Below, piece by piece: positions 14,231-51,286 of a stretch of DNA of 64,000 nucleotides. This DNA comes from Clavaria fumosa (lineage: Eukaryota; Basidiomycota; Agaricomycetes; Agaricales; Clavariaceae): the NCBI GenBank assembly GCA_951802425.1, contig OX637800.1:1674001-1738000 (forward strand), read 5' to 3'. The notes below the pieces were generated by a model, which searched no databases, was not told the origin of the DNA, and saw only the letters and a program-made list of their open reading frames with translations. Position numbers and translations under genes: made by a program. The first letter of the stretch is position 1, and every line of letters starts with the position of its first letter.

Positions 14231-14390
14231 AGCATAATGGAAGAAAACAAATGTCACCAGCCAGAGTTGAACCCAAATCCTTGTGTCACTTGGAAATGCA
14301 GTTACCAGCTATGCCATGCAGCCACAGTTATCTTAGCCAATATAATCCCTATAGCCCTTGTCCTGAGCTCTGTGGAGTCCTTAGGAGTCC
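14231..14390 (-). repeat. tRNA-derived (SINE-like) unit, left copy
   Basis: Reverse complement of the unit at 15755-15893. Its B-box equivalent reads GGTTCAACTC, decayed relative to the right copy. See that entry for the promoter boxes. Confidence 0.45.
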
Positions 14391-15065
14391 TGAGGAGTCT
14401 GACTGGAGTCCTTAGGAGTCTGACTGGAGTCCTGAGGAGTCCAACTGGAGTCCTCAGGAGTCTGACTGGAGTCCTCAGGAGTCTGACTGGAGTCTTGAGG
14501 AGTCTGACTGGAGTCTTGAGGAGTCCAACTGGAGTCCTGAGGAGTCTGACTGGAGTCCTCAGGAGTCTGACTGGAGTCTTCAGGAGTCTGACTGGAGTCC
14601 TGAGGAGTCCAACTGGAGTCCTGAGGAGTCCGACTGGAGTCTTGAGGAGTCCAACTGGAGTCCTGAGGAGTCCAACTGGAGTCCTGAGGCACTGCACAGA
14701 GTCATGAAGTCAATTCTGACTGTAATAACTGACTGCAAATACTCCTTGAGACTTGGCCTGCAATCTGCATGGAGTCCTGAGGAGTCCAACTGGAGTCCTG
14801 AGGAGTCTGACTGAAGTCCTGAGGAGTCCAACTGAGTCCTGAGGAGTCTGACTGGAGTCCTGAGGAGTCCTTAGGAGTCTGACTGGAGTCCTCAGGAGTC
14901 TGGCTGGAGTCTGGCTGGAGTCCTCAGGAGTCCTTAGGAGTCTGGCTGGAGTCCTCAGGAGTCCTTAGGAGTCCAACTGGAGTCCTCAGGAGTCCTCAGG
15001 AGTCCAACTGGAGTCCTGAGGAGTCCGACTGGAGTCCTGAGGAGTCCAACTGGAGTCCTGAGGCA
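14375..15065. repeat. 21-bp GGAGTCC array, forward
   Basis: Repeats of roughly GGAGTCCTGA plus GGAGTCCAACT or GGAGTCTGACT (10 + 11 = 21 bp). The 21-bp period leaves several frames open, giving spurious reading frames of up to 186 codons. It is interrupted at about 14688-14775 by an 85-bp unit (CACTGCACAGAGTCATGAAG and following), which recurs at 15060-15150 and, inverted, at about 15210-15305 and 15390-15480. Confidence 0.9.
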
Positions 15066-15164
15066 CTGCACAGAGTCATGAAGTCAATTCTGACTGTAAT
15101 AACTGACTGCAAATACTCCTTGAGACTTTGCCTGCAATCTGCATGGAGTCCTTGAGGAGTCTGA

Positions 15165-15755
15165 GTGGAGTCCTCAGGACTCCAGTTGGACTCCTCAGGA
15201 CTTCAGTTGGACTCCTCAGGACTCCATGCAGATTGCAGGCCATGTCTCAAGGAGTATTTGCAGTCAGTTATTACAGTCAGAATTGACTTCATGACTCTGT
15301 GAAGTGCCTCAGGACTCCAGTCAGACTCCTGAAGACTCCAGTCAGACTCCTGAGGACTCCAGTCAGACTCCTGAGGACTCCAGTTGGACTCCTCAGGACT
15401 CCATGCAGATTGCAGGCCAAGTCTCAAGGAGTATTGGCAGTTAGTTATTACAGTCAGAATTGACTTCATGACTCTGTGAAGTGCCTCAGGACTCCAGTCA
15501 GACTCCTGAAGACTCCAGTCAGACTCCTGAAGACTCCAGTTGGACTCCTCAGGACTCCAGTCAGACTCCTGAAGACTCCAGTCAGACTCCTCAGGACTCC
15601 AGTTGGACTCCTCAGGACTCCAGTTGGACTCTTGAGGACTCCAGTCAGACTCCTAAGGACTCCTGAGGACTCCAGTTGGACTCCTAAGGACTCCAGTCGG
15701 ACTCCAGTCGGACTCCTGAGGACTCCTCAAGACTCCAGTCAGACTCCTAAGGACT
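15165..15755. repeat. 21-bp array, inverted orientation
   Basis: Same repeat family as 14375-15065 but reading GGACTCC on the plus strand. It forms the right arm of the fold-back element; the symmetry centre is near 15100-15150. Confidence 0.9.
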
Positions 15756-16516: not shown

Positions 16517-16892
16517 ACTCCACTTACTCCGATACCCCATTTTTATTTTATTTTATTTCCTTTCTATTCTATGTACATTCCTTCTATATAACTCCGTTCC
16601 CTTCGAAAAACAAAATAGAATTCTTAGTTATCCATCTCTTTTTCCTTGTTCCCTTACTCTGTTTGCTCTGAATCTCCGAAAAAACAATTCTCTCTTCTCT
16701 CTGTTCCCTTATTCTGCTTTCTCCAAAACTCTGAATCTCTTTCTTCGTTTTGTTTCTCTGTCTTGCCTTACTTATTTTTCCTTTCACTCTGCTTACTTTT
16801 CACTCAAGTTCAAAGATAAAAAACAAAAAAAATTATAAAAAAGAAAACAAAAAAGAAAACAATAAATACAATGTAGATAAATTTTTAATTTT
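16517..16892. other. T-rich downstream segment of family 3 pol
   Basis: Pyrimidine-rich sequence ending in an A-rich tract at about 16815-16870. No gene is seen. It separates pol from the convergent antisense gene and may hold terminators for both transcripts. Confidence 0.4.
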
Positions 16893-17864
16893 TTAGGTGG
16901 AGGGGGGCGAGCTGGGCAATGCCTGCAAAACTCCTTCAGGCTTGTCTAGCCTGGACTCCGCTCCCACCTCTCCGTCCTCCTCCTCTGCCACCTTCTCCGA
17001 TCTCTCCACCTCCTTCTCCGCCTCTACCTCCTTCACCTTTTCCTTTCCCTTCCCCGTCACCTCCACCACCATGTCCTCCGCCTCCGCTTTCTCCACCTCC
17101 GCCCTCAGAACCTCCGCCTTCTCCTTCCTCACCTCCTCCGCTACCTCCGCTGCCTCCGCCTTCTCCGCCACCTCCATCCTCCTCCCCCACTTCTCCAAAA
17201 TCCCATGGAGGATCCTCCGATCCTCTGCCGCAGCCTTCCACTCCACCGTGGCCTCCTTCCTCCACTCCTCTATTGTGACCACCCCCCTCAGGACCACACT
17301 ATGCATGGCCCACACCAAGTTCAAAACCTCCTCCTCTGGCCGCTGACCCCATGGCACCCACATCTCCACACTATCCTCCTCCGAGTCCGCATCCCCTTTG
17401 CCTGTTTCCGCTCCAGCTGCTCCGCCTCCCCACCTCCACACTTCTGCTTCGCCCCCGCACAGGCGTTGCAGGCCGTCCCCCACCCCCCACTCGGCCACAC
17501 ACAGGCCACCCCCAACCTACGGCATCGCGCACACTCCGCCTCCGTTTCCGGTGTCAGAGACCGCTTCCTCCCTACCCCTTGCTCCCATGCCACCTCCGCT
17601 GCCCTCCGCTTCGCCTCCACTGCCTTCGCCCTCTCCTGCTCCTCCCACCGCACCTTATCCGCTACCTCCCTCGCTTTCCGCTCTTCTTCCTCCCACCTCC
17701 GTCGCCTTTTTCTCCCTCAACACGTTGATCTTCTTTGTGAGGGCTGCGATCTTGGGGTCCTCGTCCTCCGTGCAAGGTTGCGTGGGGACGGCGACAACAG
17801 GTCATGGGCAAGGGCGGGAGGGGCGGCTGGGCCCGGGTCTGGGCGTCAATTGCATGTTGGACAT
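16893..17864 (-). pseudogene. Decayed antisense Zn2Cys6 gene of family 3
   Basis: Antisense to pol, between the chromodomain and the 3' LTR. It starts MSNMQLTPRPGPSRPS (17864), meets a TGA, then continues DEDPKIAALTKKINVLREK. A shift in an A-run leads into a charged coiled-coil-like stretch (RWEEEERKAREVADKVRWEE). Then comes the cluster CARCRRLGVACVWPSGGWGT followed by ACNACAGAKQKC, spacing C-x2-C-x6-C-x10-C-x2-C-x6-C, with basic residues as in Gal4-type Zn2Cys6 domains. After another frame change the C-terminus has a Glu/Lys-rich helix. At least two frame changes and one stop show it is broken. The layout parallels the intact gene at 27184-28773. Confidence 0.65.
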
Positions 17865-19546: not shown

Positions 19547-19610
19547 TGTCACAGCCCTATCCAGTCACCTAATCACCTCCGAAACACCTCCGAAACACCT
19601 CCGAAGCATA
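19547..19610 (+). repeat. Start of a family B LTR, truncated
   Basis: TGTCACAGCCCTATCCAGTC directly follows the polypurine tract and matches the reverse complement of 41380-41448. Homology fades after about 60 bp. Confidence 0.6.
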
Positions 19611-24862: not shown

Positions 24863-25165
24863 TATCAGACTGGGTCTCACAATCACACAGCTTAATGTAA
24901 GGTCAATGATGATGATACTAACATAAGGGGAAAACGGTACAAGTAGGAAAAAGACGTAGTATATATAGTGGGAACCCCAGGAGTTGCCGGTGTTCCCACG
25001 CTCGGACCCCGTGAGTCACGTGATGCGCCCAGGCCTGGGTCATGTGACTTTCACATTACATAATCCGCCACCCGTCCGGGTCACGTGACTTTCCTGCAAT
25101 CTTCCCACATCTCTTTTGCAACCCTCCCTCTCGCTTCTCTGGTGCTTATGTAAGCAGTCCTGACA
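24863..25165 (-). repeat. 3' LTR of copy 2A
   Basis: 303 bp, TATCAGACTGGG to GCAGTCCTGACA on the plus strand. It is followed by the family's polypurine tract (CCCCCCTCTTAAG on the plus strand). It contains ATACTAACAT (24915-24924), the proposed self-primer. Confidence 0.85.
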
Positions 25166-25176
25166 TCACCCCCCTC

Positions 25177-26110
25177 TTAAGGCTGGGCGTCTCGACCAGC
25201 CAATTTTGCTTTGTCAGGGTGTTGCTGGAAGAAGTCCCAGAGCAGCAGAGTCACATTGGTGAGGTTCCGGCGAGGTTCCCAAGTGTTCTCCTCCACCGGA
25301 TACCCCAACCATTTCACCAAGTACTTCACCCCACATCCCACCTTTTTGACATCAAGGATGGCCTTGACATCATACTCCAAGTGGTCATCATCAATTGTGG
25401 GAGGGGGGGGCAGAGGTAGGCTCTGAGAAGGGAAAGAGGGAGCAACATATGGAGTGAGCAACACCTCATTGAACACCTGGTGTATCCGCCACACTCAGGG
25501 GAGCTTGAGCTGGTAGGCAGCTGGTCCAACCTTTTCTTCAACAGCAAAGGGCCCTGCTCACTTGTTGTCAAGTTTTTTGGAGGGTCAGTCCATTTTTAAA
25601 TTCCGTGTGTCCAACCAGACTAAGTCTCCCTTCAAGTATTCCCAACTCGGCTGCTTTCCCTTATCATAGCTGGCCTTCATTGCATCTGCTGCTTTCCCCA
25701 TTGCTTCCCTGGCTGCTCTTTGAGACTCTGTGAGCTTGGCCATCCACTCATCTGCCACAGGGTTCACTTCTGAGGGTGGCCGAATTCCACCATTCCATGG
25801 GTGCTGGCCATACTCTAGGTAGAAGGGCATGAATCCAGTGGCTGAATGTTCTTGGTTATTGAGTGCAAACTCAGCAGTAGACAGCCATTCTGCCCAGTCA
25901 TCCTGTAGGTGGTCCACATAGGCCCGGAGGTACACCTTGACCTCCTGGTTGACCCGTTCCATCTGTCCATCTGTCTGGGGGTGGAAGGCTGTACTCAGGT
26001 TTGCCTTAACCCCAATCATCCTGTAAAACTCCTTCATGAACCTAGACACAAACTGGGTGCCCCAGTCACTCACAACTTTCTGCAGAACTCCATGGTCACA
26101 GAAGACCTGG
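25177..26110 (-). pseudogene. Integrase C-terminal part and chromodomain of copy 2A
   Basis: Blocks QFVSRFMKEFYRMIGVKA, STAFHPQTDGQMERVNQE, EWLSTAEFALNNQEHSATG, a GPFAVEEKVG-like linker, then the chromodomain YDVKAILDVKKVGCGVKYLV followed by KWLGYPVEENTWEPRR. A frame change near 25490-25585 separates the linker. Homologous to the same region of copy 2C. Confidence 0.8.
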
Positions 26111-27028
26111 TGTAGTAGGCTGTACAGGTGTTGGCTGCAAATAGATGTTCGTGGCCGGGTTCTTCAGGGGGTCTTATTACACAACGGGTACACTAGACAG
26201 AACCTTGGAGGATGTAGAGGTTGAGTGCAAAAGGTTCAGAGAGTGAAAATATACGTTGTCCGGAGTATCTGGTATCGGATCCGATAGAGTCCGATGTTTG
26301 GATCGAAGGTTCGAGGGGCCGGTGACGACGAAGGCCAGTGGATCAATAGGTACGACGAAGGGTGAGCTTGCTAAAAATCACAGCACGATGTGGGCGTTCA
26401 AAAAGCTGGATTACCATAGAACCTGGTACATACTTAAGTACATTTTCGTAAGTACAGCAAATCCAGTTCTACGGAAATGTCCGGAAAACATATGGAACAG
26501 CGCCATGTCATGTGAAGGGTTATATGGAGGAGTTATATCACAAGGGAATTGAGTAGCTCGGAGGAATGAAATGTCTGATGAGTAGCGCATGTCCGGACCG
26601 CTCGTAAACTGAAGGAAAGTGGGGCTGGTACAGCAAAGGGGGTACTAGGAACAATGGGCAAAGTACTGCAAAGGGTTTGAAACGTTCAAATGATTGAATG
26701 GTTGAAAGGGATCACAATATGAAATTTACAGCATGTTATATGAAATAAAGGAATGGGAATGGAATAGTGAGTATGTCGAGCGCTGACCATGCTGGAGTGA
26801 TGAAATAGAAAGGCGTGGGCAGTGTGTGAGACCTGCGGGCTGTGATCGTCACGGGGGATTGAAGACCAGGGAGTCCGATATCGGATATATATCGGATGCT
26901 ATCGGACGTTATCGGACGGTGTCGGATGGTTATCGGATCGTATCGCACGTAATTGCCTTGGATCGCAAAATATCCGGATAGTCGGTTTCTGTCATATTTC
27001 CGTGTTTAGACCACATATAATCCTTACA
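26111..27028 (-). repeat. 3' LTR of copy 1B
   Basis: 918 bp, TGTAGTAGGCTG to ATCCTTACA on the plus strand. The inner flank on the minus strand is CCCGGGAGAA, the polypurine tract. It differs from the right LTR mainly by CpG transitions. Confidence 0.9.
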
Positions 27029-27183: not shown

Positions 27184-28773
27184 ATGGAAAACTTCGACGC
27201 TGTAATCTTTCAGAACGTGGTTCAGGCCATGGTGGAAGCACAGGCCGTGGCTCCGGAGAATGTTCTGCCTGAGTCAGGCCAAGATGCTGAATATGCGGAG
27301 TGGGTACGGGGGTACGGAACGGATGCGGTGCGCGACAGTATTTTTCGTTCGTGGTGTTGAGCTGACATATATTCTTTTTAGGATGATTTTCTTGCAGGAT
27401 TTGTGGCTGCGATTGAGGAGGATGTAGAGGTAGATGAGGGGCTCGTGGCCGTCGCGCAAAGACTGAAGAGGTGGAAGAAGCAGCGTGGTGAAGTGTGGGC
27501 CGCCGAGCTGGCGAAGAAAAACAAGGAGGCCGAAGCCGAAAAACAGTGCGAGAGCGAGGAGAGGGCGGCCACCGAGCGGGCCATCGCGGAGGCGGAGGCG
27601 GAGGAGAGAAGAACGGAGGCGGCGAAGGTTGCTGAGAAGAGGGCACGTCTTGCCCGGGCGCGCCTGATCGTTGTTAGTGACAGCGAGGACGATGGCGGGG
27701 CGGCAGCGGCAACAGCAACAACAACGACAGGGGCGGCGGAGTCTGGTGCAACGGCAGCGGCGACGATGACGGTATCGCCGGACGCCGCGGAGCTGCGTGG
27801 GGACGAGGTAGCGACTGCGGAGGTGGAGACAGGAAAGGTACGGGTGGCAGCGGCGGAAGATCGGGACGGTCATCGGACCGTGTGGGGAACCGACGGGGTG
27901 ACGCCCGTCGGTGTTATCGAAGCGGCAGCCGTGGGTGCGGTGGCCGTGGGGGGGCAGCAGACGGTGGAGGTGCCCCTCACGTTGGAGGCTCGGGTGGGCG
28001 GGCGGATGACGGCGACTCCGGTGTGGGTGGAGATGGCGAGGCGGAAGGCGGCGGAGTGGGGGCGAGGGAGGAGGAGCGGAGCGGGGGCGGACATAAAGTC
28101 CCGGGCTGCGCGGCAGCCTGGAGATAAGGTGAGTGATCGATTAGAATGTGTGAGGGTTTTAGATATCTGATCTGATGAGTAGGAACACGATCCGGTTTGT
28201 GAGGAGTGTGCCCGGAAGCGGCGGGCGTGTTACGGAGTGGAGGGGGTAGCGTGCCGGTGGTGCCGGACCTACAAGGTGTCGTGTAGTCTGTCAGCTGTAC
28301 GAGGTAAGTGGTATTCTTTTTATTTCTTGATGAACCAATCTGAAAGGTGTGTTTCAGGAGTGAAAGCCGAGAAGGTCGCAGTGTCCAGTGCTGGAGGTAA
28401 GTCAAGAGAGTACCGGATCTGTATCGGCTAACATAGCGGAGTAGGTCCGAAGGTGGCGGAAGCGACCCCGAGCAAAAGGCCGAGGCAAGGTGCAACGCGG
28501 GCACCGGTCCGTGAGGAGACGACACCGGAGGAGGAAGAGGAGGATGAAATTGAGGACGACGATAGCGTGGAGTTGGTGGAGCCGCCAGCGAAGAGGAGGA
28601 AGGCGGAGGCGGGTCCCAGCCAAAAGGGAAAGGAGCGGGAGATGGAGCCAGGAGTGTCCGGAAGGGAGGCGCTGGAGAGAGCGCTGGAGATGATGGAGAG
28701 GGGGGTGGATCAGGTGAAGGCTGGGGCGGAGCTTCTCCGGATGCTCCTTCTCGGCAGGTCATCGGCTAAATAA
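27184..28773 (+). CDS. Antisense Zn2Cys6 (Gal4-type) protein carried by retrotransposon copy 1B
   Basis: Five exons, 27184-27303, 27382-28128, 28183-28303, 28358-28396 and 28445-28773, sum to 1356 nt (451 aa plus stop) in one frame. All introns have GT-AG ends, and branch-like CTGAC and CTAAC occur in the first and last. Residues 41-130 are Lys/Glu/Ala-rich (coiled coil likely); 150-290 are Ala/Thr/Gly-rich. Residues 295-323 carry C295, C298, C305, C313, C316 and C323, spacing C-x2-C-x6-C-x7-C-x2-C-x6-C with basic ARKRR between, the fungal Zn2Cys6 DNA-binding pattern. An acidic run (EEEEEDEIEDDDSVELVE), a basic PAKRRK patch and a leucine-rich helix follow. It lies opposite to gag-pol, between integrase and 3' LTR. 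A role as a nuclear regulator of the element or host is inference. No decay is visible. Confidence 0.8.
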
Positions 28774-29156: not shown

Positions 29157-32100
29157 TCATGATTCATCGGGCTTGTCCTCGGCTGCGATCGTGTTCTCGG
29201 GTTGGTCGTCTACATGTTGTTCCTCGTTTGGATCGATGATAGAGGTGACCAGAATCGATGTTTGCGATCGCGGATAGTAGGGAATGATGCGGAAAGCTGC
29301 ATAGTGGATCTTTGAGATGGCGCCGTCGAGTTCCGAGAGAATATATGCGCCGTATTGAGTTCGGCGGACGACGATCATCGGTCCAAAGAATCGCGGTTTT
29401 GTTTTCTGATTTAATTCCATTTCAACGGCCGAATTGCGGATCAATACCAACGATCCGGGTTGGAAGTCGTAATCGATAATAGACTTGCGGTGTGCGTCGA
29501 TGAACTGCTTGACGGATTGTTTGCGGGCAGCGAGCACTTTATCAGCGATTGTTGCAAGATCTTCTTCTCGTTTTTGCAGTTGGCGGGCACAAAGGGCTAT
29601 CAGTTCCAGAGTGGTCATCGGGGCATCGGCGGTCGGAATTAGATATGTTGCTTCGGATATGTCGAAAGGGAAAAGCGGTTCGATGCCGTGTGCGATGTAA
29701 AACGGAGAGTGACCGGTGGATCGTTGGATTGTGGTTCGTTCTGCCCAAATGACTGAGGGTAAAACATCTGGCCATTTCGATTCATCTCCGTCTGCTGCTT
29801 TGATTAACAACTCGCGGACCGACCGGTGGGCACATTCGATGACGCCGTTAGCACGGGAATTATATCTGGAAATACGGATGTGATGGATTCCATACCGCTT
29901 CTTGAGGAAATCGAGAGCTTTGATAAATGGGGCACCGTTATCCGTAATGATCTCTTCTACTGCTCCCCATCGGCACAGTATGTCTTCAAATATGAAGGTT
30001 CCGAGAAGTCGGGCGGTCTCATTTCGTAGCGGTCTTGCTTCCGGATATGCGGATAATGAGCATCGGGCGTGGACAAGAAGTCGGAAACCGCGGGTTCTGG
30101 GTAGGAACATGGTATCTATATGCACTCGACGGAAAAGACCGGCCGGTGTGGCGACCGTTGGTGGAATGAAAATCTTCCGGATTTGCCGAGTCTGGCATTG
30201 GTGACAAGTTCGGACAAACCATTTTACATCTTGATCCAACACCGGCCACCAGAACTGATTTAGAATACGTGTTCGGATAATGTAAATGCCTTTGTGGCCG
30301 AGTGAATCGTGTGCCTCTGTGATAATTGCGAGCCGTTTGTGGTCCAGAGGCACTACCTGGTGGCATCCGTTAGGTCGGCGACGCCATAGCTTGTCATCTA
30401 GAATGAAGAACTGGGATGCGGAGCGGACTAATCGTCAGAACTGGTTTGTGTCGATGCCGGAAGGACGGATCGGGTTTTGAAGGAAAGATTCGATTTTGTG
30501 GATCTGTTCTTCCCTTTTCTTTGCTGTGTCGGGTCGCGGTATAAGGATGGTGGAGGATTCATTCGGAGCCAGTGAATCATTGGATGGTACCGTCGAATTG
30601 AGTAGCATCGATCCTGTGTAAGCTTTGAAGCAAGAATGGGTGATGCCGGCGAGTGGCATCTCGGATGGGTAGGAAGCGTCCGGTGCTTGATTCATGTGTT
30701 CCATGGCGAATACATAGCTCCGATCGATCCAGTCTTCGTGATCTTTGGACTTGGTGTCTTCTTCACCATCTGCGGCACGTCGGCGTGATAGTCCGTCGGC
30801 TCCGGTGTGTTTATCTGCGGGAATATGAACAAGGTCGAAATCGAAGAGTAGTATACCGGCAATCCATCGATTCATTGCAGTGTTTGGTTGAACGTCCGGA
30901 TTGTTTAGCATACCCTTAATGAACTTCGCGTCCATTTCAACGGTGAATTTCGGAAGGCCGATAAGGTAAATCCGGTACGACCGAAGTGCGCGGAAGAGTC
31001 CGTATAATTCGATTTTTGCTTGAGAGTATCGGGCCTCGCGTTCATTCCAGGTAATTGAGCCGAATCTGGATGGGTATCGGATTCCATCTTGTCCGATTTG
31101 AAATAGCGCGAAGCCGACAGCGATGTTGGACGAGTCGACGGCCATAATTACAGGCCGTCCAGAGCGGTAATTGATCGGTCGAATGGCGGATGAGTTGACT
31201 ATTGCGTGTTTGAGTCAGTCCATCGAATTTTGCTCTTCTTCTTCGAACCTGAATGGGACGTCCTTACAAGTTAGGCTGACAAGTGGTCGGGCAAGTACGG
31301 CGTAGTTTTTGATGAATATCCGGAGCAGTCCGCAGATGCCTAAAAATGATCGTACATCTGTGAGTGTTTCGCACGGAGGCCAGTCTCGAATGTGCTGAAC
31401 ATTGGAAGCGTCCGGAACTCGCCCTTCATATGTGCATGTGTGTCCGGTAACGATTGTTTCGGGGGTGCAAATTGTCGTTTTCTTGCCATTAAAGGTTCCT
31501 CCAACTATTTTGACTCGTTGGAGCACCCGGTTGACGTTATTCAAATGCTCCCAAACGAACCGCCATATTTGCGGATTCTTCGGGATCGTCTCGTAAGTGC
31601 CGTCTGGAAGCTTGTATCGGGTTTCCGGGCCCTTAATCGCTACATCGTCTACGAATGGGATGGTTACGTGCGGAATTTCGTCTTGTAGTATATGCGTGAC
31701 GTCTCCATGCATAATCTGCATTGCGTTGGTGTATCCCATTGGGACGCAAGTGAGCCGTTTGGCTCCGAGAGGGGTTTGAAATGTGGTAAGGTCTCGACTT
31801 CGCTCGTCGAGAGACCGTTGATCGAAGGAGACGAATAAGTCGAGCGTTCTGTAGCATCCGCGTCCGGTGAATGATTCTGCAAAAACTTCCATTATCGGGG
31901 GAACCGCGGAGTCGCCGATGGTGACTTTGTTTAATGGCTGGAGGTTATGGACAAGTCGGAGAGACTTTCCGTCCTTCTTTAACACGCAAAACCACTGGGA
32001 CCGATAGGAGGAGTTGGACTCTTCATAGACTCCGGCCGCTATCTTGTCCCGGATAACCTTCAGAACTTCGTCGTAGATGCCGGGAGGAATCGGTATATTT

Positions 32101-32987
32101 TTGAAGATCCAAGGGACATGTTTGACTGTCGGGATGATAATGGGATCGAAGTATTTTGCATCGAATTGTCCTTTTTCGGTCTCCGTCCAAGCGAAGGCAT
32201 CTTCCTGGGCTTTAATAAGATAATGAATGAGTTTTTCTTCCTCTGGCCATAAAAATCCGGTGGGATTTGCGTTATGCGCTTCTTTCCGGTCTTGAGTATA
32301 TCGGAGACTGGGGGTGAAATCGGGGGGGTGTGTTGGAAGAGTGGGGATATTGGAGAGGGGATCGGGGTGTTGTCGTCGGACAATCTGAAATTCTTCGGGT
32401 AGAGTTGCTTTGATCAGGTTGACACGGTTTGCGACTTTCTTGTATTTCTTTCCAAGGTAAACTGGCATAACGATGTCCGGAGACGGTGTATTGGTTTCTG
32501 AGTTATTGGGGTACATTATGTGTGTGGTATCGTGGTACACCGGTGTGTATCCGGCGCTGACCAAGGCTTCATATGAAGTGCCCGAAATATCGGCAAAAGG
32601 AAGGGGATCGACAGGAACTAAATTTTCAAGAGAAGGAGATAAGAGATTGTGAACAGAAGTAGATAGAATAGCTGGAGACTCGTGTTTGTGTATAGCTTCC
32701 GTGTCCGCTTTGATTGGAAATGGCTCCGGAATGTTGCGGTGATCTGGGGCTCCAGCTACTAAAAATATGGATGCATTTTCTGAAGTTTGAGGTTTTTCCA
32801 GATCAGGATTCACTCCTTTGTCGGTACGATGATCCTTTCTCCAGTGTTCGGATCGTTCAGGATCAGGTCTTGGGCACCATGAGGATGGTCGATAGTTTGG
32901 GAGCTGGTAAGCATAAAGAACAGGCGTCCGACGAGGACCTCGCAAGGTAGGGTATCGGCGACCTGCATTTGGACATGAAACGTGCAT
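29157..32987 (-). pseudogene. pol (RT, RNase H, integrase) of copy 1B with two nonsense codons
   Basis: The RT part begins in the region overlapping gag-protease; motifs are AAGVYEESNSSYRSQWFCVL, LRLVHNLQPLN, QTPLGAKRLTCVPMGYTN and the catalytic box IPFVDDVAIKG. RNase H: AVDSSNIAVGFALFQ, EREARYSQAKIELYGLFRAL and ADKHTGADGLSRRR. Integrase: HDSLGHKGIYI, FVRTCHQCQTRQ, IITDNGAPF and ANGVIECAHRSVRE, ending at 29157. The frame is open from 32987 to 29157 except for TGA at 31215-31217 and 30435-30437, both where Arg would fit (CGA to TGA). Otherwise all catalytic residues are visible. It is in the -1 frame relative to gag-protease. Confidence 0.85.
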
Positions 32988-34918
32988 GGACTGATCTGCA
33001 AGGGAAAGTTCTTTATCAGTCCGAGCGTCGGGGCGATGGTACCGTGTGAGGACTCCATATGAATTACGCGCTCGGAGTGCAGCAGATTACCGAGCTTCTC
33101 CCAAACGTCTCTTCGCATTGCCACGATCGAGCTGCCTTGGTCGAGCAAGCACTCCGCGGTGATCCGGCTATCCAATATGCCTTCTACGATGCGGAGCAGA
33201 GCGGCATCGACAGCTACGACAAGATCGGAGGTGTCCGGGGTTGTAACGTTTGTGTAGAGCATATCCTGTACGACAGACATGGTGACCGGAACTTGGCGGG
33301 CGGTAACCATATCCTTCATCTTTTTGTGGATGTCTCCGGAAATGGCGAGTAATTCACGGGGTGTCACACGGACCGGAATGTCGAGTGCGCGATCGAAAAC
33401 TTGTTGAACGGTTACCGGATTTTCTATTGGAGCTTGGTAATGATACTGGACGTCAGATCGTTCGATTCTTTCCGGCTTCAATGGGCGCATGACCAGAGGC
33501 GAGGTAATGACAACAGCGGGCGGAGGAGGTAACCTAGATGGCTGTGGATCATTATTCCTGGGTGTGGGCGCTTTCCTTTTGCCCTTATCTACTTTCTTTG
33601 CCACATCGTTTGCAAAGGTGCGGACCATGTTTTCCAATGCAGTCGTCTCATTATCTTCTTCTTCTGATTCGTCTTCCATGTCCAGGGGGTGAGCGGATGG
33701 TCCGATCAGCTGTGCTTCAAATACCGCGGTTGTCACCGGTTGCGTATTCTGGGATTGGTAGGTGGCGTAGTACTTGTCAAAGCGCTCTGATAGGTTATTT
33801 CCCACAATAGTGCCTGGCAAGTATCGTCCGGAGGGAAGGCAAATTCTGCCTTCGGTGTTCCGTATACATTTACCGGACTTGATGTATTCGAGGGCCTTCG
33901 GACAGGCACTAACAAAATGACCTGGTTCCGAACAGAAATTACACATCCGATTTGTAGGGGAATTTGTGGTCCGAGGGGCGGAACATTTTGCTGGTTCGAG
34001 AGATTGTGCTGATAAAATTGATTCCAGGCGAGCCATTGTAGAAGCAAATGTCGCCAAGGCTGCGGACATGTTGAGTTCTTCCTTCTTGATTACTGGTTTC
34101 GGTTCCCTCCTGGGGGCTGCGGATGCGAAGCGGATAGGTCCGGAGAATTGATCGGTTGTTACGGAGTGCGGGGACATTGAGGAGAGTAGAGATTCGGCTG
34201 CGGCGTGAACCTCATTCATCGGGTATGGGTCCTCCGGATGGTGATTAGGTAGTATAATCGTGAGCCGGCTCTCGATCCGGCGCCTAGTATGATCCCCAAA
34301 TCCGAGGATGTAAAGCTGGTTTCTGTCATTTGTGGACATACGTTGGGAGGTGATCAAGTGTGAAGTGATCCGGAGAAAGTCCCGGTAATATTCTCCGTGT
34401 TCTGCACGCATGTAAACCCCTTTTTGGGCCGAGTCTGATATGAAATGGTCCAAATCGGCGACAGAAAACAAACGACCGCCATCAGAGCCTGGATAAAGGC
34501 GTCGGACAGCCTCTTTGAAGGTTTCCCAGGTCCATACCGGGTCCGGGGCTGGTGTGAGGGTCTTCCAGAGGAGACATGTGTCTGTGTCGAGGTAGTGCTT
34601 TGCGTACCGAATTAAATCGGCTTCCGGAACATCTGGATTAATGCCGGTGAGTACAATGTTGATGTCCTCGAAATACCGGTTGAGATGGGTTGGTACTCCG
34701 TCAAAGGCGGGGGCCCCGTGAGCGCCACGGAGCGGATATCTCAGTTGGTTGGCCATTGGTATTGCTGCGTGAGGAAGTTCTTGTATGGCATCGAGAGGAT
34801 TCTGTGGTTTGTCAGTTGGAAATTGTAAGGTGTTCAGTTCGAGGGGTAGTGGTGTGAGCGGTGAGTGTGGTTCTTCGAAGATCTGTGGTAATGAGGTAAC
34901 CGGGGTGGCGAAGCTCAT
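32810..34918 (-). CDS. gag-protease of copy 1B
   Basis: Intact frame of up to 702 codons. The likely Gag core starts at MANQLRYPLRGAHGAPAFDG. It has NPDVPEADLIRYAKHYLDTD, a zinc knuckle CNFCSEPGHFVSACP (C-x2-C-x4-H-x4-C), an acidic linker and a retropepsin-like site LLDQGSSIVAMRRDVWEKLG with the Asp kept. It ends RIIVPTKE at 32810, overlapping pol by about 178 nt. Family knowledge: this gag-protease plus separate pol layout is common in mushroom Ty3/gypsy elements. The start codon choice is uncertain (34918 or the internal Met near 34756). Confidence 0.85.
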   Translation of the reverse strand: MSFATPVTSLPQIFEEPHSPLTPLPLELNTLQFPTDKPQNPLDAIQELPHAAIPMANQLRYPLRGAHGAPAFDGVPTHLNRYFEDINIVLTGINPDVPEADLIRYAKHYLDTDTCLLWKTLTPAPDPVWTWETFKEAVRRLYPGSDGGRLFSVADLDHFISDSAQKGVYMRAEHGEYYRDFLRITSHLITSQRMSTNDRNQLYILGFGDHTRRRIESRLTIILPNHHPEDPYPMNEVHAAAESLLSSMSPHSVTTDQFSGPIRFASAAPRREPKPVIKKEELNMSAALATFASTMARLESILSAQSLEPAKCSAPRTTNSPTNRMCNFCSEPGHFVSACPKALEYIKSGKCIRNTEGRICLPSGRYLPGTIVGNNLSERFDKYYATYQSQNTQPVTTAVFEAQLIGPSAHPLDMEDESEEEDNETTALENMVRTFANDVAKKVDKGKRKAPTPRNNDPQPSRLPPPPAVVITSPLVMRPLKPERIERSDVQYHYQAPIENPVTVQQVFDRALDIPVRVTPRELLAISGDIHKKMKDMVTARQVPVTMSVVQDMLYTNVTTPDTSDLVVAVDAALLRIVEGILDSRITAECLLDQGSSIVAMRRDVWEKLGNLLHSERVIHMESSHGTIAPTLGLIKNFPLQISPCTFHVQMQVADTLPCEVLVGRLFFMLTSSQTIDHPHGAQDLILNDPNTGERIIVPTKE

Positions 34919-35145
34919 GTGGGAGTAAACAATGGATGAAATACTGGGAATGTCTGATGGAAGAAAGTGGGAAGTTTCAATTACTTCTCCAGGAGGTTCG
35001 GAGTGCAGTGGTTCTGTGATTCGATCCGGGTTTCGACTTCTCAGACGTTCGGAGCGTCGAGGCTGGAAAGCGGAGGAGCCTCTGGGAATCCTTGAAGGCT
35101 GTAGTGAAGACGTTGTTATGACCGCCTCGCAGTGGGCTCCAAAAT

Positions 35146-36382
35146 TGTAGTAGGCTGTACAGGTGTTGGCTGCAAATAGATGTTCACAGCCGGGTTCTTC
35201 AGGGGGTCTTATTACACAATGGGTACACTAGACAGAACCTTGGAGGATGTAGAGGTTGAGTGCAAAAGGTTCAGAGAGTGAAAATATACGTTGTCCGGAG
35301 TATCTGGTATCGGATCCGATAGAGTCCGATGTTTGGATCGAAGGTTCGAGGGGCCGGCGACGACGAAGGCCAGCGGATCAATAGGTACGACGAAGGGTGA
35401 GCTTGCTAAAAATCACAGCATGATGTGGGCGTTCAAAAAGCTGGATTACCATAGAACCTGGAACATACTTAAGTACATTTTCGTAAGTACAGCAAATCCG
35501 GTTCTACGGAAATGTCCGGAAAACATATGGAACAGCGCCATGTCACGTGAAGGGTTATATGGAGGAGTTATATCACAAGGGAATTGAGTAGCTCGGAGGA
35601 ATGAAATGTCCGATGAGTAGCGCATGTCCGGACCGCTCGTAAACTGAAGGAAAGTGGGGCTGGTACAGCAAAGGGGGTACTAGGAACAATGGGCAAAGTA
35701 CTGCAAAGGGTTTGAAACGTTCAAATGATTGAATGGTTGAAAGGGATCACAATATGAAATTTACAGCATGTTATATGAAATAAAGGAATGGGAATGGAAT
35801 AGTGAGTATGTCGAGCGCTGACCATTAGTGAACTGCACGGGTAACCCGCGGGTATTTTTTGCTGTACCCGTACCCAGGGCGGGTTTTACCCGTAACCCGC
35901 GGGTTTTACCCGTCAAAATAAGCCCTAGATCATCCAAATCGGTCAAGTATTGAGTGAGTTATGATTAAAACAATCTAGTTGACCATAATATTCATAACTC
36001 ACTCAATTCTTATCCGTTTTGGATGATCTAGGGACCGTTTAAAAGCTCACGGGTACGAGAATCCGTATCCGTACCCAACCCGCATGCGAAACCCGTCCAA
36101 AACCCGTGGGTATACCTGTACCCTTGCATTTCACTACTGACCATGCTGGAGTGATGAAATAGAAAGGCGTGGGCGGTGTGTGAGACCTGCGGGCTGTGAT
36201 CGTCACGGGGGATTGAAGACTGGGGAGTCCGATATCAGATATATATCGGATGCTATCGGACGTTATTGGACGGTGTCGGATGGTTATCGGATCGTATCGC
36301 GCGTAATTGCCTTGGATCGCAAAATATCCGGATAGTCGGTTTCTGTCATATTTCCGTGTTTAGACCACATATAATCCTTACA
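35146..36382 (-). repeat. 5' LTR of copy 1B (with MITE inside)
   Basis: 918 bp of LTR plus a 311-bp MITE and its 8-bp duplication. The inner flank on the minus strand is ATTTTGGAGCCCACTGCGAG, with a TGG-starting primer site four bases from the LTR. It ends at the copy 2A junction after ATCCTTACA. Confidence 0.9.
35826..36136. mobile_element. hAT-type MITE, 311 bp
   Basis: Flanked by the 8-bp duplication CTGACCAT (35818-35825 and 36137-36144); the other LTR has a single empty site. Termini TAGTGAACTGCACGGGTA and (reverse complement of the right end) TAGTGAAATGCAAGGGTA. The interior is a fold-back around CTAGATCATCCAAA and its complement. The TSD length and TAGTG start fit the hAT superfamily. 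It has no coding capacity. Confidence 0.9.
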
Positions 36383-38940
36383 CCGGTCTCAGAGGATATG
36401 AGCAGCACCAAGTCCAGTGAGGTCAAGACTGATAGCCTCGATGAGGTTCTGCTTTGTGAACTTGTCCACAATGACCAGGATTGCATTGTGCCCATGGGAG
36501 AGTGGGAAAGGGCCCACAATGTCCCAAGAGATCACTGCCCAGGGCCCTTCAGACATGGGGTGAGGGTGGAGTGGAGCGGCGCACCTAGTGCAGTTGGTCT
36601 TCACCTTCTGGCACATCTGACACCCTCCTGCATACCAATTTGAATCCTTCACCATCCCCACCCACCAGTAGGACCTCAGCAGCGCTGCTCTCAGCCTCTG
36701 TGGCCCTGGGTGCCCCACAATGGGAAGGTCATGCTCAAAGGTGAGCACTGCCTCACATGCCTCTGGGGGTACCCAGGTGATTTTGGCCTTCTGCCAGAGT
36801 CCCATCTGATCTCTTGTCCACTCATCATCCAGCTCTTCTGGCTTCTGCATGTGTACCACGCTATTTTTCTGGAGTAGCATCTCCACCTTCGTGTTCGACT
36901 TTCCAGTGCAGTACTTTATTTCAAAGTCAAAGCACTGGAGCTCCCCAACTCACCGGACCTGCCTCGGTTTCAACTTCTGGGGCTTCCAGAAGTACTGGAG
37001 GTTAGCATGGTCCATCCAGATTTTGATGGTTTCTTCCACCCCAATCAGGTAAGCCCACCACTTGTGTAGTGCCCGGATTACAGCCAGGAACTCCTTGTCG
37101 TACACATCATAATTCTTCTCAGCTGCAGTGAGGGCCTTGGAGATATAGTCTACAACTTTCCAAGTCCCATCCACCTGCTGCTGCAAGAGAACTCCTCCAG
37201 TTGCCAAGTTGCTTGTGTCCATTTCTACCTTCCATCTCCCTTTGTCTTGTGGTAGGGCCAAGACAGGGGCCGATATGAGTGCCAGGCGAAGATCCTGGAA
37301 GGCTGCTTCCTCCTCCTCCTCCCATTTCCATGGAACCTTCCCTGTCAGCCGGAATAGGGGTTTGGCACAGGCCGAGAGGTTTGGAATGTGATGGCAGAGG
37401 TAGTTTAACATCCCATTAAACTTCTGTACATCCTTCACATTCCTTGGCTGTGGCCAGTTGTGGATTGCAGCACCTTTAGCTGGGTCATGTTCCAGACAGT
37501 TGTGGGAAATCTTCATACCCAGGAAGAGGATCTCACTCTTCTCAAACTCACATTTACTGAGTCTGAGGCACAGCCCATTCTCCCCAAACTTCCTCAAGAC
37601 CCAATCCATCCAGTAGCAGTGTGTTGCCAAGTCCTCAGCAAACACAATCACATCCACATATGCTCTGACATGCCCTCCCACAATCTCTTCCTGCAGCACA
37701 TGGTTCATGAAGCGTTGGAAGGTCACAGGTGCATTCTGCAAACCACATGACAGCCAGTTCGAAGAGTCCACAAGGCGTAAGGAAGGCACAACAATGTTGG
37801 TGTTCTGCCCAGATCTTCATAGATGGAAACCCTCCTTTTGCATCAATCTTTGAGTAGACATTAGCCCCCTTGAGCACATCCACCATGTCACAGATATGGG
37901 GGAGGGGGTATTTGTCCCTGATTAGTCAATAATCGGCCACAGCTTGTCCTTCTCACATTTGAAGAAGAAGGGGCTGGCATACAGGGATCTCGAAGGCTGG
38001 ATTCGCCCAGAAGCCAACTGCTCATCCACCCATCAGTTTATCTCCACCATTTCTTCTCGTGTGAGTGAGGAGAGCTTGGAGGAGAGGTGTCCAGGGTCAG
38101 TTTTGAACTCAATCTTAATATCAAAGTCTGGGTGGGAGTGGGGAAGCTCATCCCACTTTGCTTCACTAAAGACTGAGGGGTAGAGGCTGGGCCAATCTGG
38201 AGTGGGGCCAGTGTTGGGGAAACAGGTGTCCAGGATACTGGCCAAGGCCAGGGTACTCGCTTTTGGTGGAACTGGGGGTCAGGCAGGGGGCTGGTGGCTG
38301 TGTGGGGAAGAGGCACAGGTGTTGGGGCAGCGGGTGAGCCTTATTTTAGCTTTCACCCAGTCAATCTCTGGGTTATGACGCTTTAGCCAATCATGCCCAA
38401 GGATCACCATGTGGGACTGGGTCTTCCCTAGCAGGAAGTGAATCTGCTCCTGGTGGTCACCAACCATCACAAGCAGCTCCATCCCATACCAGATCTTACC
38501 ATCCCTGTTCTGTGTCCCATCCACATTGTACATTGTGATTGGGGACAGCAGGGGGGATGGCTCCAGTCCCACCTTTTTCGCCCACTCCAGGTCCATAAAG
38601 CAGTTGGTGCAGCCTGAGTCGACAAGGGCTTTTATAGTTGCCCCCTTGCCAGTGCTGAGAGCCTCCAGGTGCACCCGGATGAAGAGCTCTCGGGGCACGT
38701 ATCAGGGAGTCTTTCAGCACCTCCACAAGGCACTTAATCAGCTCTGCTTTCCTGCTAGCCACCCTTTCCTTTTGCAGCATTTCATTATCAGCAGTTTCTG
38801 TTCCCACTTTGTCCTTCTCCTCAACCCCAATCTGGGTGTGTCTCTGCTGCAAGATAGTGTATTTGGGAGTACTAGCTGCAGACACAGGGATGGGAGGGGG
38901 GCTGGGATATCTACTCCCAAGGCGCCAGTTCGGACTCACT
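36383..38940 (-). pseudogene. Protease, RT, RNase H and integrase N-part of copy 2A
   Basis: Retropepsin KALVDSGCTNCFMDLEWAK, RT block with a damaged active site reading RAYVDVIVFAEDL (copy 2C: RAYVDDVIVFAEDL), RNase H VEMDTSNLATGGVLLQQQ, integrase zinc end HDLPIVGHPGPQRLRAAL then CQMCQKVKTNCTRC, core ISWDIVGPFPLSHGHN. Several frameshifts (near 37750, 37900, 38280 and 38700) break the frame. The lost Asp is an exact 3-bp deletion at about 37647-37655. Confidence 0.85.
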
Positions 38941-39940
38941 GGGCCTCGTCTCCAAAATCCGGCTCCTCAACAGGAGCCCTCTTCTCTCTCTCAAGCAACT
39001 CTACACAGCCTTGGAGCAACGCAATCTCATTCTTGTAGTCTTCGGCACTTCATGCCTGGCTTTCCATGGCATGGACCTGCGGCCTTGGGATCTGTGGGTG
39101 TGTGTCTGGGAGGAGGCAGTCTCTCACCATGTGGCCAGCTTGGCCACATCGGAAACAGGCACATCCTACTCCAGGAGCATGGGCACAATTGACCAACATG
39201 GCATCACCAGCACTGGCAGGACGTGGCATGATGGGAGGGGCAGGGGTGCGGGCCTGTGGCTGGGCCAGGAAGGGGCGAGGAGCTGGGGTGAAGCAGGTTT
39301 GTTGGGGGAGGGGTCAACTGGCTATAGGCAGAGCTGGGCACACAGAGTCCTGCTGTGCAATGACTCCATCAAAGCGGCGCTGCTGGGCATCAAGCTTCTC
39401 TGCAAGTGCCTTCCATTCTACATAAGTCTCTGGCATCAGTGAGACACCATAGACCTTTCCCACTAGCCTCCTGCTCAAGTTCATCTCCAGCCAATGGACC
39501 AGGATGTCCGAATCAGCCACTTCTGTCATCCCTGCTCTTCGGAACATTGTTTCGAACTTCGTGAAGAACTCAGGTGCCATCATGACACCCTGTTTTAACC
39601 TTGCAATGTCTGCAAGGGCAGTTGCATGGTCGTCCGGGTCATTGAACACTCACTTCATCTCCTCCACAAATTCTGCCCAGGTTCCAACCTCGTTGTTACC
39701 CAGTATTTCCTCTCCCTCCATATTTGCCCATTCTGCAGCAAATCCATCTCCAGCAATTTTGCTGAGGGTGTAGAGGACCTTTGCCAGGTCCATGGCATAG
39801 ATTGTCAGATTCGCCATAAACAGGAGGCAGAGTGACTGGAGGAATGTACAGAAATTTCTTTTTTGCCCATCAAATGGGGTAACAGCTAAATCCAGCCTCG
39901 TGGCATGGACTTCAGGTGGGGCGATGTGGTCAGCCATCAC
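38941..39940 (-). pseudogene. gag of copy 2A
   Basis: N-terminus MMADHIAPPEVHATRLDLAV, TPFDGQKRNFCTFLQSLCLL, AEFVEEMK, then (after a frame break at 39650) DIARLKQGVMMAPEFFTKFE, NLSRRLVGKVYGVSLMPETY and LDAQQRRFDGV. The C-terminal zinc-knuckle part at 39000-39250 is degenerate. Homologous to gag of copy 2C. Confidence 0.75.
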
Positions 39941-40646
39941 AGACCCTGGTGGTGGTGATGGTGTTTTGGGGACGTCAGTAACGGGGGAATCGGGGGGAGC
40001 TGGGCTCGACCTGGTCTCGGTTGTAGATGCTGTAAATAAAATTCTGGGCCTTGGGCACTCAGGATTTCTTCAATCTCTTAGCAGTCCTGTCCTCTCAGGC
40101 TGCTCTCTATGTACTTATGTACTTATAGAACTCTTATTCTATAAAACTGTTGCTAGCGTGGGGCCCAAATGGTGTCCCAGGTGGTCGCTGCACAACTCCT
40201 AATGAGTTGCCCATGTGCCCTTCTGACAATGGTCACAGAGCAAGGGCCCTGTCCACTGGACCAGGAAACTACTAGAAGGACTATGTAGAGGGCCTTTCCT
40301 TGCCCTGTACCCACACAATTCACTGGTACATAGCTGTAAAACAAAGTTCCAGGCCTTGGGCACTCAGTATCACTTGGGGAGGGTCACAGTAGACTTCCTC
40401 TGGGTCTGGTCATATGTATCTACACACAGTAAAAATTTCATGCAGTTCTGTTACACACCGCAGGCAGGGTAAAGGAGAAGAGGATGATAGGGGCTGAGCT
40501 GTGACAGTGTGTCACAGTTTGAGATTAAGGGTCCAGGCTAGCCGGGTTAGGACATGGGGCTAGGGCGGACAGGATTGATGTTAGTATTGTATCAGACTGG
40601 GTCTCACAATCACACAGCTTAATGTAAGGTCAATGATGATGATACT
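39941..40646 (-). mobile_element. Leader and 5' LTR stub of copy 2A
   Basis: Leader homologous to 52281-52850. The sequence next to the LTR (plus strand ATGTTAGTAT, 40578-40587) complements the LTR. LTR bases 40590-40646 end where a family B LTR begins at 40647, so that insertion broke the 5' LTR. Confidence 0.75.
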
Positions 40647-41448
40647 TGTTAAGATCTGATTCTTTGCTTCAAAGTGGGGTAGGGGTAGTGTAGAGGAGAC
40701 CAAAAAAGGTGGCAAAGGTGAAGCTGGAGCAGAGTGGAGTCCAGTCGGATTCCGGATTAGAGTTGTGTGAGGACTTCTCCTCTACACAAAGGAAAAGAAC
40801 TAGAAGGAGGGGGTCGAAGGGGGTGGGACTGTGGCCTCAACTTATGGGTTGTGCTACCACGTGTATATGTGTCCCAATTTAACCTTGCTGGTACTTTGCT
40901 TTCCAGGACAAGGAAGGACGAAGTCCAAAGGGAAATTGCCCAGAGTCCATCAGAGTCTGCTGGAGTTTTGCGGAACTTGTCGGGACTGTCAAGAACAGTG
41001 AGGACGAAGTCCCTTAATGCATGGACCAAGTGGCAAGGACCAGAAATAACGTTAATATTCGAACTGAGGATCATGGAGATACATAGGGGGTTTATATGCT
41101 ACTAGGGTAGGGCATAGGGCAGACTGTGAAACATGAGTATATCAAATATCTACAATAATTTCACCTGAGGAGTGGGAAAGGCATAGATGATACATGTAAG
41201 GCAAAGAATAAGTTCCCATGGATGGTGGGCATTGTCCCAATGGTTACTAACCATGGACTAGCACCAAGGAACATGCTAGAAACAAAGTCCATTCAGTCCG
41301 AAGGACCGATATCGAAGTCCGACGAAAGTCCAGACCAGAGCAGAGGTGCCAGAGTTGGAGCAGAGATGTGCTGGAGATGTATTGGAGGTATTTCAGAGGT
41401 ATTTGAAGGTAATTAGGGGTGGTCTGGGTGACTGGATAGGACGTGACA
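40647..41448 (-). repeat. 3' LTR of family B element
   Basis: 802 bp, TGTTAAGATCTG to GGACGTGACA on the plus strand; close to 21184-22015. Confidence 0.8.
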
Positions 41449-43856
41449 GTATCCCCCTCTTAGGGTCGAGCCCTCGAGACCCTTAAGTGACAGTATTTCA
41501 CTATGTGGGTTGGAGAGAGTTGGAGTTGGAGGTGGGTTGAGGAAGGTGGAACAAGGACTGGAGCTGGAGTTGGAGTCGGAGGTCTGGAGCAGGTCAGAGA
41601 TAGTGCAGATGTGTCGGAAGGTGTCAGAGATGTAGAGCAGAGGTGTGGAATTGAAGTTTCGGAGTTTTGGAGTGGAGGTGCAGAGGTGCAGAATCAGAGT
41701 TGGGGCGGAGGAGCGGAGGTAGTGGAATTGGAGTCGGAGTTTTGGAGTGGAGGTGCAGAGGTGCAGAATCAGAGTTGGGGCAGAGGAGCGGAGGTAGTGG
41801 AATTGGAGTCGGAGTAGAGGTGTGGAGGTGCGGAGGGGTGGAATTGGAGTCAGAGTGGAGGTGGTGGAGTCAGAGTCAGAGTAGAGGAGTAGAGGAGCAG
41901 AGGTAGCAGTAGCAGAGTTGGAGCAGCAGAGCAGAGGAGCAGAGGTAGTGTAGTGTGGAGGGAGGAATCAGAGAGAAGCAGAGGTATGGAATTGGGGTTT
42001 CGGAGTTTTGGAGCAGAGGCACAGAAATGGAGTCAGAGCACGGAGTTGCGGAGCAGAGGTGCGGAGGTGCAGAGCGGAGGTGCAGAGGTAGCAGAGTGTG
42101 GAGGGGGGGTGCCAGAAAAGGTCGGAGATGCTGGGAGGCTGTGAGGACCTATTGTAAGTTCACTCACCCCCCCTCCCACAAAAAAATTTTTTCTTAAAAA
42201 AAATTTCCATGTTTTACTAAGGAATTGTCAAGAAGTGGGTTAGAGTGGACAGAAGAGTAGAACAAAAACAGGAAACAAGAAGTGTTGGAGTTGTACAAAG
42301 GGCAACATTGTATGGAACAAGATTTCGGAGTTTTGTAAAGTCAAGAAAAGTGAGGAAATCAAAAGTATCAAAAATATGAAAAAACAGAGTTTTGGAGATT
42401 CAGAATTCATGGGGATTGGAGTAACAGGAAACATAAGGACATAGGAAGCATAACAATGTAGCAAAGGAACATAATTTTGGAATTTCGGAGTTTTTGGAGC
42501 ATCGGAGGAGGGCAGAATCTTGGTGTTTCGGAGATGCAGAGTCCGAGAATGTGAGTGTGGAGTGGTCCAGAGCTGTGCAGAGATGTGGCATGGAGGTCCA
42601 AGACCATGTCAGAGGAGTTCAGAGTAGTTCAGAGTAGCAAGGATTGCATGAGCAACCTTGCTGGACAGATGTGTTCACAAGATAGCAATCCTGAGAACTG
42701 GTGATGCAACCACAGTGGGCAGCATCCAGAATCGGGTCCAGATTCGGACTCGCTGCAGCAAGGATAGAATTGGAGTCCCAGAGTCGGAGTTCCGGAGTAG
42801 GTCCAGAGTATGCACTGGCCAAGCACCCATTGGAGTCCGTGCCCAGATCGGATCGGAGTTTCGGAGTCAAATTTCTGCAAGTGCAGGAGTCCTTGAATTG
42901 TTAGGCTTGTACACTGGACAATCAGCAGATTGTATATGGTACAGCCAGGTGTCCAAAGGACCAAGTCACACAAGGGGACAAGATCAGAGTTCAGAGGGCC
43001 ATGTTGAGACAAGACAGTGGGCCATGAAGCAAGACAAAGTGTCTGGAGTTCAGAGTTCCAGATTTTGGAGTTCTGGAGTTTGACAATCCAGAGTTTGGAA
43101 GTCTGAGGTTTGGAACTACAGAGCTCAGAGTTTGGCATTTCCCGTCTCAGAGTTTCACAACATGGTAATCCACAAAGGAAACGAGCACAAGGAAAGCTCA
43201 AAAAGGAGCAATATCGGAGTTCTGGAGTTTAGAGATTCGGAGTTTTGGGGGTCTGGAGCTTGGAGTTTGGCATTTCCCATCTCGGAGTTTCACAACATGG
43301 TAATCCATGAAGGAAATGAGCACAGGGAAAGCACAAACAAGAGCTGGAGACAGGATATCCAGCATTCCCCATCTCAGAGTGGCCAGAGACAGAGTTTGGA
43401 TATCTGGAGTTTGGAGTTTCCCATCTCAGAGCCTTGCAACATGGGATATGAAGGAGGCAAGCCAGGGAGAACCCAGGAACAGGGGGCCAGAGTTCAGAAG
43501 TCCAGCATTCGGTGTTTTCCTGCCTCAAATCTCTCAATATGATACATGAAGGAGATGAGCTAAGGAGCACAATGAATTGTTGGCTGGAGTTCAGAAAATA
43601 TCCTGATTTGTATCACCGTGGACAGACAGCTTGTGGCAAGTCCAGGTCCAGAGCAAATGCACACAAGGTGTGCTCAAACAGACTGGAGTTTCGGAGTGGA
43701 GTTTCGGATCGGAGGTGCAGATTGGAGGTGTGGACCAGAGGTGTGGATCAGAGGTGCGGATTGGACCTTTGGCTTTTGCAGCAAGGAGCAAGGCAAGCAG
43801 CAGCACAAAGGGCAAGCAAAGGACCAGTTGTATACATGAGGTTGTTAGTTTGAATA
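41449..43856 (-). repeat. Purine-rich interior of family B element
   Basis: The plus strand is packed with GGAGGTGCAGAG, GGAGTTTCGGAG and GAGTTTGGAGT variants. The plus strand also encodes RRCWEAVRTYCKFTHPP at about 42117-42170, the same block as in 18826-19546. Long reading frames here are by-products of the repeats. Confidence 0.7.
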
Positions 43857-44010
43857 TACTGTTAAGATCTGATTCTTTGCTTCAAAGTGGGGTAGGGGTA
43901 GTGTAGAGGAGACCAAAAAAGGTGGCAAAGGCAAAGCCAGAGCAGAGCAGAGTCTGGTTGGAGTCCGGATCGGAGTTGCGCAAGGACTTCTCCTCTACAC
44001 AAAGGAAAAA
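43857..44010 (-). repeat. Partial 5' LTR of family B element
   Basis: TGTTAAGATCTGATTCTTTG to CTCCTCTACACAAAGGAAAA; homology with 40647-40800 ends exactly where the palindrome arm starts. Confidence 0.75.
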
Positions 44011-47810: not shown

Positions 47811-47821
47811 TCACCCCCCTC

Positions 47822-51277: not shown

Positions 51278-51286
51278 GATAGTATA

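Follow-up and report, generated by a model that had tools for sequence, protein, structure and literature searches.

A conserved antisense gene for a Zn2Cys6-like protein, and a helically phased candidate binding array, in long terminal repeat retrotransposons of Clavaria fumosa

Introduction

Human T-cell leukaemia virus type 1 (HTLV-1) has an antisense spliced gene, HBZ, that is read from the side of the 3' long terminal repeat (LTR) and encodes a DNA-binding bZIP regulator. Among fungal elements, brtn of the Boty elements was reportedly described by Zhao et al. (2011, Virology). Antisense accessory genes between pol and the 3' LTR have been known for years from plant and fungal LTR elements, with function given as unknown in passages of PMC7264820. 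Here we analyse a gene in this position in a Ty3-type LTR retrotransposon of the basidiomycete Clavaria fumosa, which lies in a 64,000-nucleotide stretch of contig OX637800.1 (assembly GCA_951802425.1, positions 1,674,001 to 1,738,000 of the forward strand), hereafter the window.

HBZ offers a functional parallel, being antisense, spliced, on the 3' LTR side and a DNA-binding regulator, as the Clavaria protein may be; it differs in its bZIP domain without a zinc cluster, its origin in a retrovirus of people and its far shorter splicing pattern. Gal4-type Zn2Cys6 factors (PF00172), for which CGG triplets are the usual half-site, share with the Clavaria gene the six-cysteine spacing, possibly dimerising helical parts and CGG-type repeats nearby. 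They differ in that the Clavaria protein scores below the Pfam cut-off and has its cluster at residues 295-323 of 451, whereas the cluster of Gal4 is near the N-terminus.

In the Boty-like elements of Botrytis and Sclerotinia the antisense gene is brtn (PMC7264820, PMC8365987, PMC4227169). Boty, too, is an LTR element of fungi whose additional gene runs antisense to gag-pol and is counted among the open reading frames (ORFs) between pol and the 3' LTR, but the passages of these papers that cite it mention no cysteine cluster, introns or LTR site arrays. Plant Retand elements carry antisense ORFs at this position, most of them with a predicted DNA-binding TRP28 domain, and a regulatory role has been proposed for them in passages of PMC11963269, where HBZ is also mentioned. 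They have TRP28 (PF04195) instead of a six-cysteine cluster and tandem repeats between pol and the 3' LTR, and introns are never mentioned in the text of that paper. Grande gene23, RIRE2, PvRetro13 and other plant aORF-3R agree in position and orientation, and the gene23 product is nuclear, with an antisense promoter upstream of gene23 (PMC7264820); they differ, as far as those passages go, in that their products have no reported clear similarity to known proteins and no LTR site array is described.

Antisense genes at this position were thus already known, and what appears to be new is the six-cysteine cluster, the multi-exon structure and the phased CGG array in the LTR. Among the papers listed by full-text searches of PMC, no title or opening of an abstract described a Zn2Cys6-like antisense gene of LTR elements, and we met no account of this combination; most subscription journals lie outside that corpus, which gives no proof of novelty.

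Results

The plus-strand gene at 27184-28773 has five exons totalling 1356 nt, or 451 codons plus a stop, in agreement with the 452 codons counted in a preliminary description made from the letters of the window. In the window sequence alone, 39 GT-AG combinations keep the frame open, so the gene model had to be fixed by other copies. A DNA search of the same genome (48.8 Mb), in which 40 of 158 candidates were scored, gave 42 matches; a protein search gave 216, and the 150 of these that were listed represent 92 places. These copies settle the splice model: of the 315 splice dinucleotides that could be tested across 40 loci, 313 are intact, compared with a mean retention of 0.689 for 117 other GT/AG pairs in exon 2, and the examined copies have their introns at conserved positions. 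An intron-4 acceptor at 28441 was rejected in favour of 28444 because the AG at 28441 is gone in many copies (GTG, GAA); that at 28444 is intact in every locus with letters there.

The antisense gene is real, conserved, protein-coding and under purifying selection. The ratio of nonsynonymous to synonymous substitution rates (dN/dS), put forward in the preliminary description as a check, is not neutral, lying at 0.18-0.47 against the window copy in 34 full copies (five partial or rearranged loci excluded). Counted relative to the window copy, the distinct indels of the same copies have a length divisible by three in 37 of 55 cases in exons and in 2 of 17 cases in introns. Over 35 copies, the coding frame of exon 2 has a dN/dS of 0.36 and 9 stops; in the other two plus frames the ratio is 1.32 (254 stops) and 0.94 (227 stops). 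On the minus strand it is 1.25, 0.43 and 1.19, with 5 (minus frame 0), 64 and 150 stops; the value of 0.43 is an expected shadow, because that frame has its third codon positions in common with the coding frame. Long minus-strand ORFs overlap the gene in the window, and minus-strand coding of the region was rejected on the dN/dS of 1.25 in the open minus frame of exon 2.

Old copies are mostly damaged, with a stop-free reading of more than 420 codons in 11 of 36 (four loci excluded). Three loci (L068, L069 and L070) are 99.5% identical across 3.5 kb and have no stops in exons 1, 2, 3 and 5, and a far relative (L079) has 68% DNA identity. Spliced in full, L068 and L079 are open throughout, with exons 1, 3 and 4 equal in length and pairwise dN/dS of 0.19-0.28.

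None of the six cluster cysteines is missing from any of the 40 loci, not even from decayed copies, while the sole other cysteine is kept in 2 of 36; the motif is thus not confined to the copy in which the preliminary description noticed it. The window gene has the Zn2Cys6 spacing C-x2-C-x6-C-x5..12-C-x2-C-x6..8-C, and searching all six frames of the window for this pattern gave two stop-free matches, at 28198-28284 on the plus strand and 17438-17533 on the minus strand (mean of 0.0 matches in 20 block shuffles). The basic signature between cysteines 2 and 3, in its PROSITE-type form, fits the window gene, and fits neither L079 nor gene 2, the six-cysteine gene of a second lineage described below. 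Exon 3 alone reached 12.1 of the 21 bits set as gathering cut-off for Pfam Zn_clus (PF00172), and was slightly better matched by zinc_ribbon_6, at 14.7 of 27, also below cut-off. Because of this score we call the gene Zn2Cys6-like and do not file it as a PF00172 member: of the Gal4-type class first proposed for it, the spacing and the conserved cysteines hold and formal family membership does not. A profile scan of the exons detected no regulatory mid-domain. Foldseek searches against the PDB returned Zn2Cys6 domains in 8 of 13 matches for a model of exon 3 and in 6 of 6 for a model of gene 2, none of them significant and some of the class names provisional.

The gene lies on the strand opposite to gag-pol, between integrase and the 3' LTR, as had been read from the window; it belongs to the element, and most members of the family have it in conserved form. 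An antisense gene match follows the integrase C-terminus by no more than 4 kb in 78 of 100 integrase matches, a count that takes in the best 99 of 1533 first-look candidates and the 150 listed of 216 gene matches. Because 99 of the 1533 were scored, these integrase matches are the nearest relatives, and the 22 without the gene may include some that have it among the 66 unlisted matches. Two gene matches depart from this arrangement: one shares the strand of the integrase and the other is located on its opposite side. An LTR end and an integrase end can both be seen in 36 of the 40 loci (L001-L040).

Upstream of the antisense gene, inside the LTR, TCGGA motifs recur at a spacing of about one helical turn; in 100 shuffles of the window, three TCGGA at such spacing occurred with a mean of 0.00. 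A TCGGA pair at 10-11 bp is found in 40 of 42 distinct upstream segments, the two exceptions being L002, with one motif left, and L027, with a pair at 21 bp. Array length changes mostly by whole turns (10, 11, 20 and 31 bp), with some single-base gaps, and the phase coherence of TCGG pairs at 10.4 bp is 0.83 (446 pairs). The array region of L079 has no blastn alignment to the window, yet the phase is kept, with TCGG at 735, 746, 766, 776, 797 and 807. In decayed copies, TCGGA sites turn into TCAGA or TTGGA and stops (integrase matches; L004, L005 and L007) are mostly TGA, as expected for C-to-T change at CpG.

A chromodomain-bearing lineage in the same genome has its own intronless antisense six-cysteine ORF, gene 2 (150 matches), and its own 10-bp TCGGA array. 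Gene 2 homologues fall below the Zn_clus cut-off (16.5, 15.4 and 12.7 of 21 bits), and comparison revealed no convincing similarity between gene 2 and the antisense gene described above (gene 1). The association of genes and arrays was assessed on contig C1 and on C2 to 4.18 Mb, the part of the genome with arrays listed. When perfect triple arrays on the same strand and at most 2.5 kb upstream are counted, 12 of 27 gene-1 places have one, as do 8 of 34 gene-2 rows, one of which (L078) is the discovery case, found via its array; random placement gave means of 0.19 and 0.30 and maxima of 2 and 3 in 1000 runs. As controls, downstream arrays number 1 of 27 and 0 of 34, and opposite-strand upstream entries 1 and 3, for gene 1 and gene 2. 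The distance to the array is 241-252 bp in eleven gene-1 places and 2412 bp in the twelfth, a copy with an insertion; for gene 2 it is 967-1024 bp, measured to the cysteine part.

Another LTR family in the window (19578-19604, 40647-44050) has TCGGAGGTG repeats in its LTR and a GTATCCCCCTCTTAGGG edge in common with the gene-2 lineage. The internal part of this TCGGAGGTG-repeat family yielded no six-cysteine ORF, so the family may be non-autonomous.

The copies of gene 1 do not all tell one history. Exon and intron distances to L001 conflict in L006-L007 and L031-L039: in L031-L033 the synonymous distance (dS) of exons is about 0.6, yet introns 3 and 4 stand at 0.04, and in L006 exon dS is 0.21, yet intron 3 stands at 0.28. 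Additionally, exon 2 has two exchangeable C-terminal versions among copies. Thus the gene looks mosaic, as if by recombination between copies.

The host element (Table 1) has paired LTRs ending TG...CA and RNase H before integrase, as in Ty3-type elements, with reverse transcriptase (RT) and protease matches below Pfam cut-offs. Its LTRs are 98.4% identical over 680 nt and 97.6% over 246 nt. An insert of about 311 bp at 35826-36136 interrupts the 5' LTR, whose pieces overlap by 8 bp, and may be a small element that duplicated 8 bp of its target. The flanks of the whole element (25144-26110 and 36383-40456) resemble the retrotransposon at 47789-52719, and the element appears to have inserted into another retrotransposon of that kind; no clean target-site duplication of the element was seen. 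Elsewhere, the window holds an inverted repeat at 44100-45345 (601-nt arms, 99% complementary, 44 nt apart) and long tandem arrays at 14321-15667 (21-nt units, both orientations) and 7855-8547 (63-nt units).

Table 1. Coordinates, strand and basis of the features assigned in the window
Feature	Position	Strand	Basis or remark
Exon 1 (ATG at 27184)	27184..27303	+	120 nt, same length in L068 and L079
Intron 1, GT-AG	27304..27381	+	splice dinucleotides compared across copies
Exon 2: charged helical part and acidic low-complexity part	27382..28128	+	dN/dS 0.36
Intron 2, GT-AG	28129..28182	+	splice dinucleotides compared across copies
Exon 3, contains six-cysteine cluster	28183..28303	+	domain scan, copy comparison
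C-x2-C-x6-C-x7-C-x2-C-x6-C, residues 295-323	28198..28284	+	each cysteine kept in 40/40 loci
Intron 3, GT-AG	28304..28357	+	copy comparison; acceptor lost in L014 and L036
Exon 4	28358..28396	+	copy comparison
Intron 4, GT-AG	28397..28444	+	acceptor 28444, not 28441
Exon 5: acidic run, KRRK patch, conserved leucine-rich end, stop	28445..28773	+	copy comparison
Six TCGGA motifs, candidate binding array, in 3' LTR	26881..26937	+	spacing 11, 10, 10, 10, 11 bp
3' LTR of element	26111..27028	-	LTR comparison
Integrase ORF (H2C2)	29157..30434	-	H2C2 above Pfam cut-off
RNase H ORF	30435..31214	-	above Pfam cut-off
RT-containing ORF	31215..33086	-	RVT_1 below cut-off
gag/protease-like ORF	32810..35227	-	zinc knuckle and aspartyl protease below cut-offs
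5' LTR, with insertion of about 311 bp; four of six array TCGGA left	35146..36382	-	LTR comparison
Decayed gene-2 copy (antisense, intronless, chromodomain lineage); cysteine cluster 17438-17533	16890..17864	-	sequence comparison

Discussion

The idea of a transcription-factor-like accessory gene, raised in the preliminary description, stands as regards a conserved coding accessory gene and falls as regards formal PF00172 membership. That the antisense protein is a DNA-binding regulator is made more likely by the invariant cysteines, the weak structural matches of both genes to Zn2Cys6 domains and the helically phased TCGGA repeats of the LTR. On circumstantial grounds, these repeats are candidate binding sites of the Zn2Cys6-like protein. 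We lean, by a little, towards a reading in which the element-encoded antisense protein of 451 aa, with a predicted fold similar to a Zn2Cys6 DNA-binding domain, binds the phased TCGGA array of its own LTR and is likely to be a transcriptional self-regulator.

Under this self-regulation, antisense transcription would start in or beside the 3' LTR, and the RNA is predicted from its conserved sites to be spliced. The protein would then enter the nucleus and dimerise via its charged helical part, and its cluster would bind zinc and the CGG of the phased TCGGA sites. As the array occurs in both LTRs, the protein could target both its own gene and the gag-pol promoter, and its acidic run slightly favours activation over repression. 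Because the gene is antisense, its GT-AG introns are not introns of the genomic RNA; they would be kept in that RNA and so survive retrotransposition.

Two observations weigh against strong selection on the sites. Conservation of the CGG columns (0.877) exceeds that of the array spacers (0.783) but not that of the remaining LTR end (0.899), and slippage can give rise to a 10-bp tandem repeat. Such a modestly conserved, slippage-prone repeat would suit a nucleic-acid-binding accessory protein for replication or integration, serving in nuclear import of complementary DNA, target tethering or as a chaperone, with the array a tandem repeat or a host-factor site. Conservation of the gene fits any accessory role, arrays also occur without the gene, and there are other TCGGA-type repeat families in the genome. 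We nevertheless regard this explanation as somewhat unlikely, since each of the two genes is preceded on its own strand, at a near-constant distance, by one-turn TCGGA arrays, in two lineages without convincing gene similarity. A DNA-binding fold would also permit a protein that works mainly on the host and shifts its transcription or silencing to the element's advantage, as HBZ of HTLV-1 acts on host factors, with the LTR array a by-product. Against this, the arrays are in the element's own LTRs and no host target came to light, though no search was aimed at one; we think it distinctly improbable.

It is also conceivable that the antisense RNA is itself functional, through double-stranded RNA or interference with gag-pol transcription, and the protein incidental. 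Non-coding antisense RNAs of retroelements are known, according to passages of PMC7264820, but codon-level selection, indels in multiples of three, invariant cysteines and kept splice sites leave this very little room, and on them a pure RNA function was rejected. Least credible of all is a spurious gene model drawn from G+C-rich open frames. The many open models in the window alone, the overlapping minus-strand ORFs and the scarcity of stops in minus frame 0 of exon 2 could suggest one; the dN/dS of that frame and all comparative tests favour the plus-strand model, and copy comparison refutes the alternative.

Returning to self-regulation, the presence of both components in two lineages of one genome suggests a broader proposal, to which we give an even chance. 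Each lineage would have a self-control module, made up of an antisense Zn2Cys6-like regulator and a matching phased TCGGA operator array, the elements having acquired a fungal-style transcription factor together with its cognate promoter sites and spread as a unit. If this is true, repeats that have these arrays but lack the gene would ride on an element-encoded regulator.

With an invariant metal-cluster-like motif and fitting, phased candidate sites in the LTRs of two lineages, the function of antisense retrotransposon genes becomes directly testable by binding and reporter assays. The gene also indicates that four introns can persist in an element copied through RNA when the gene is read antisense.
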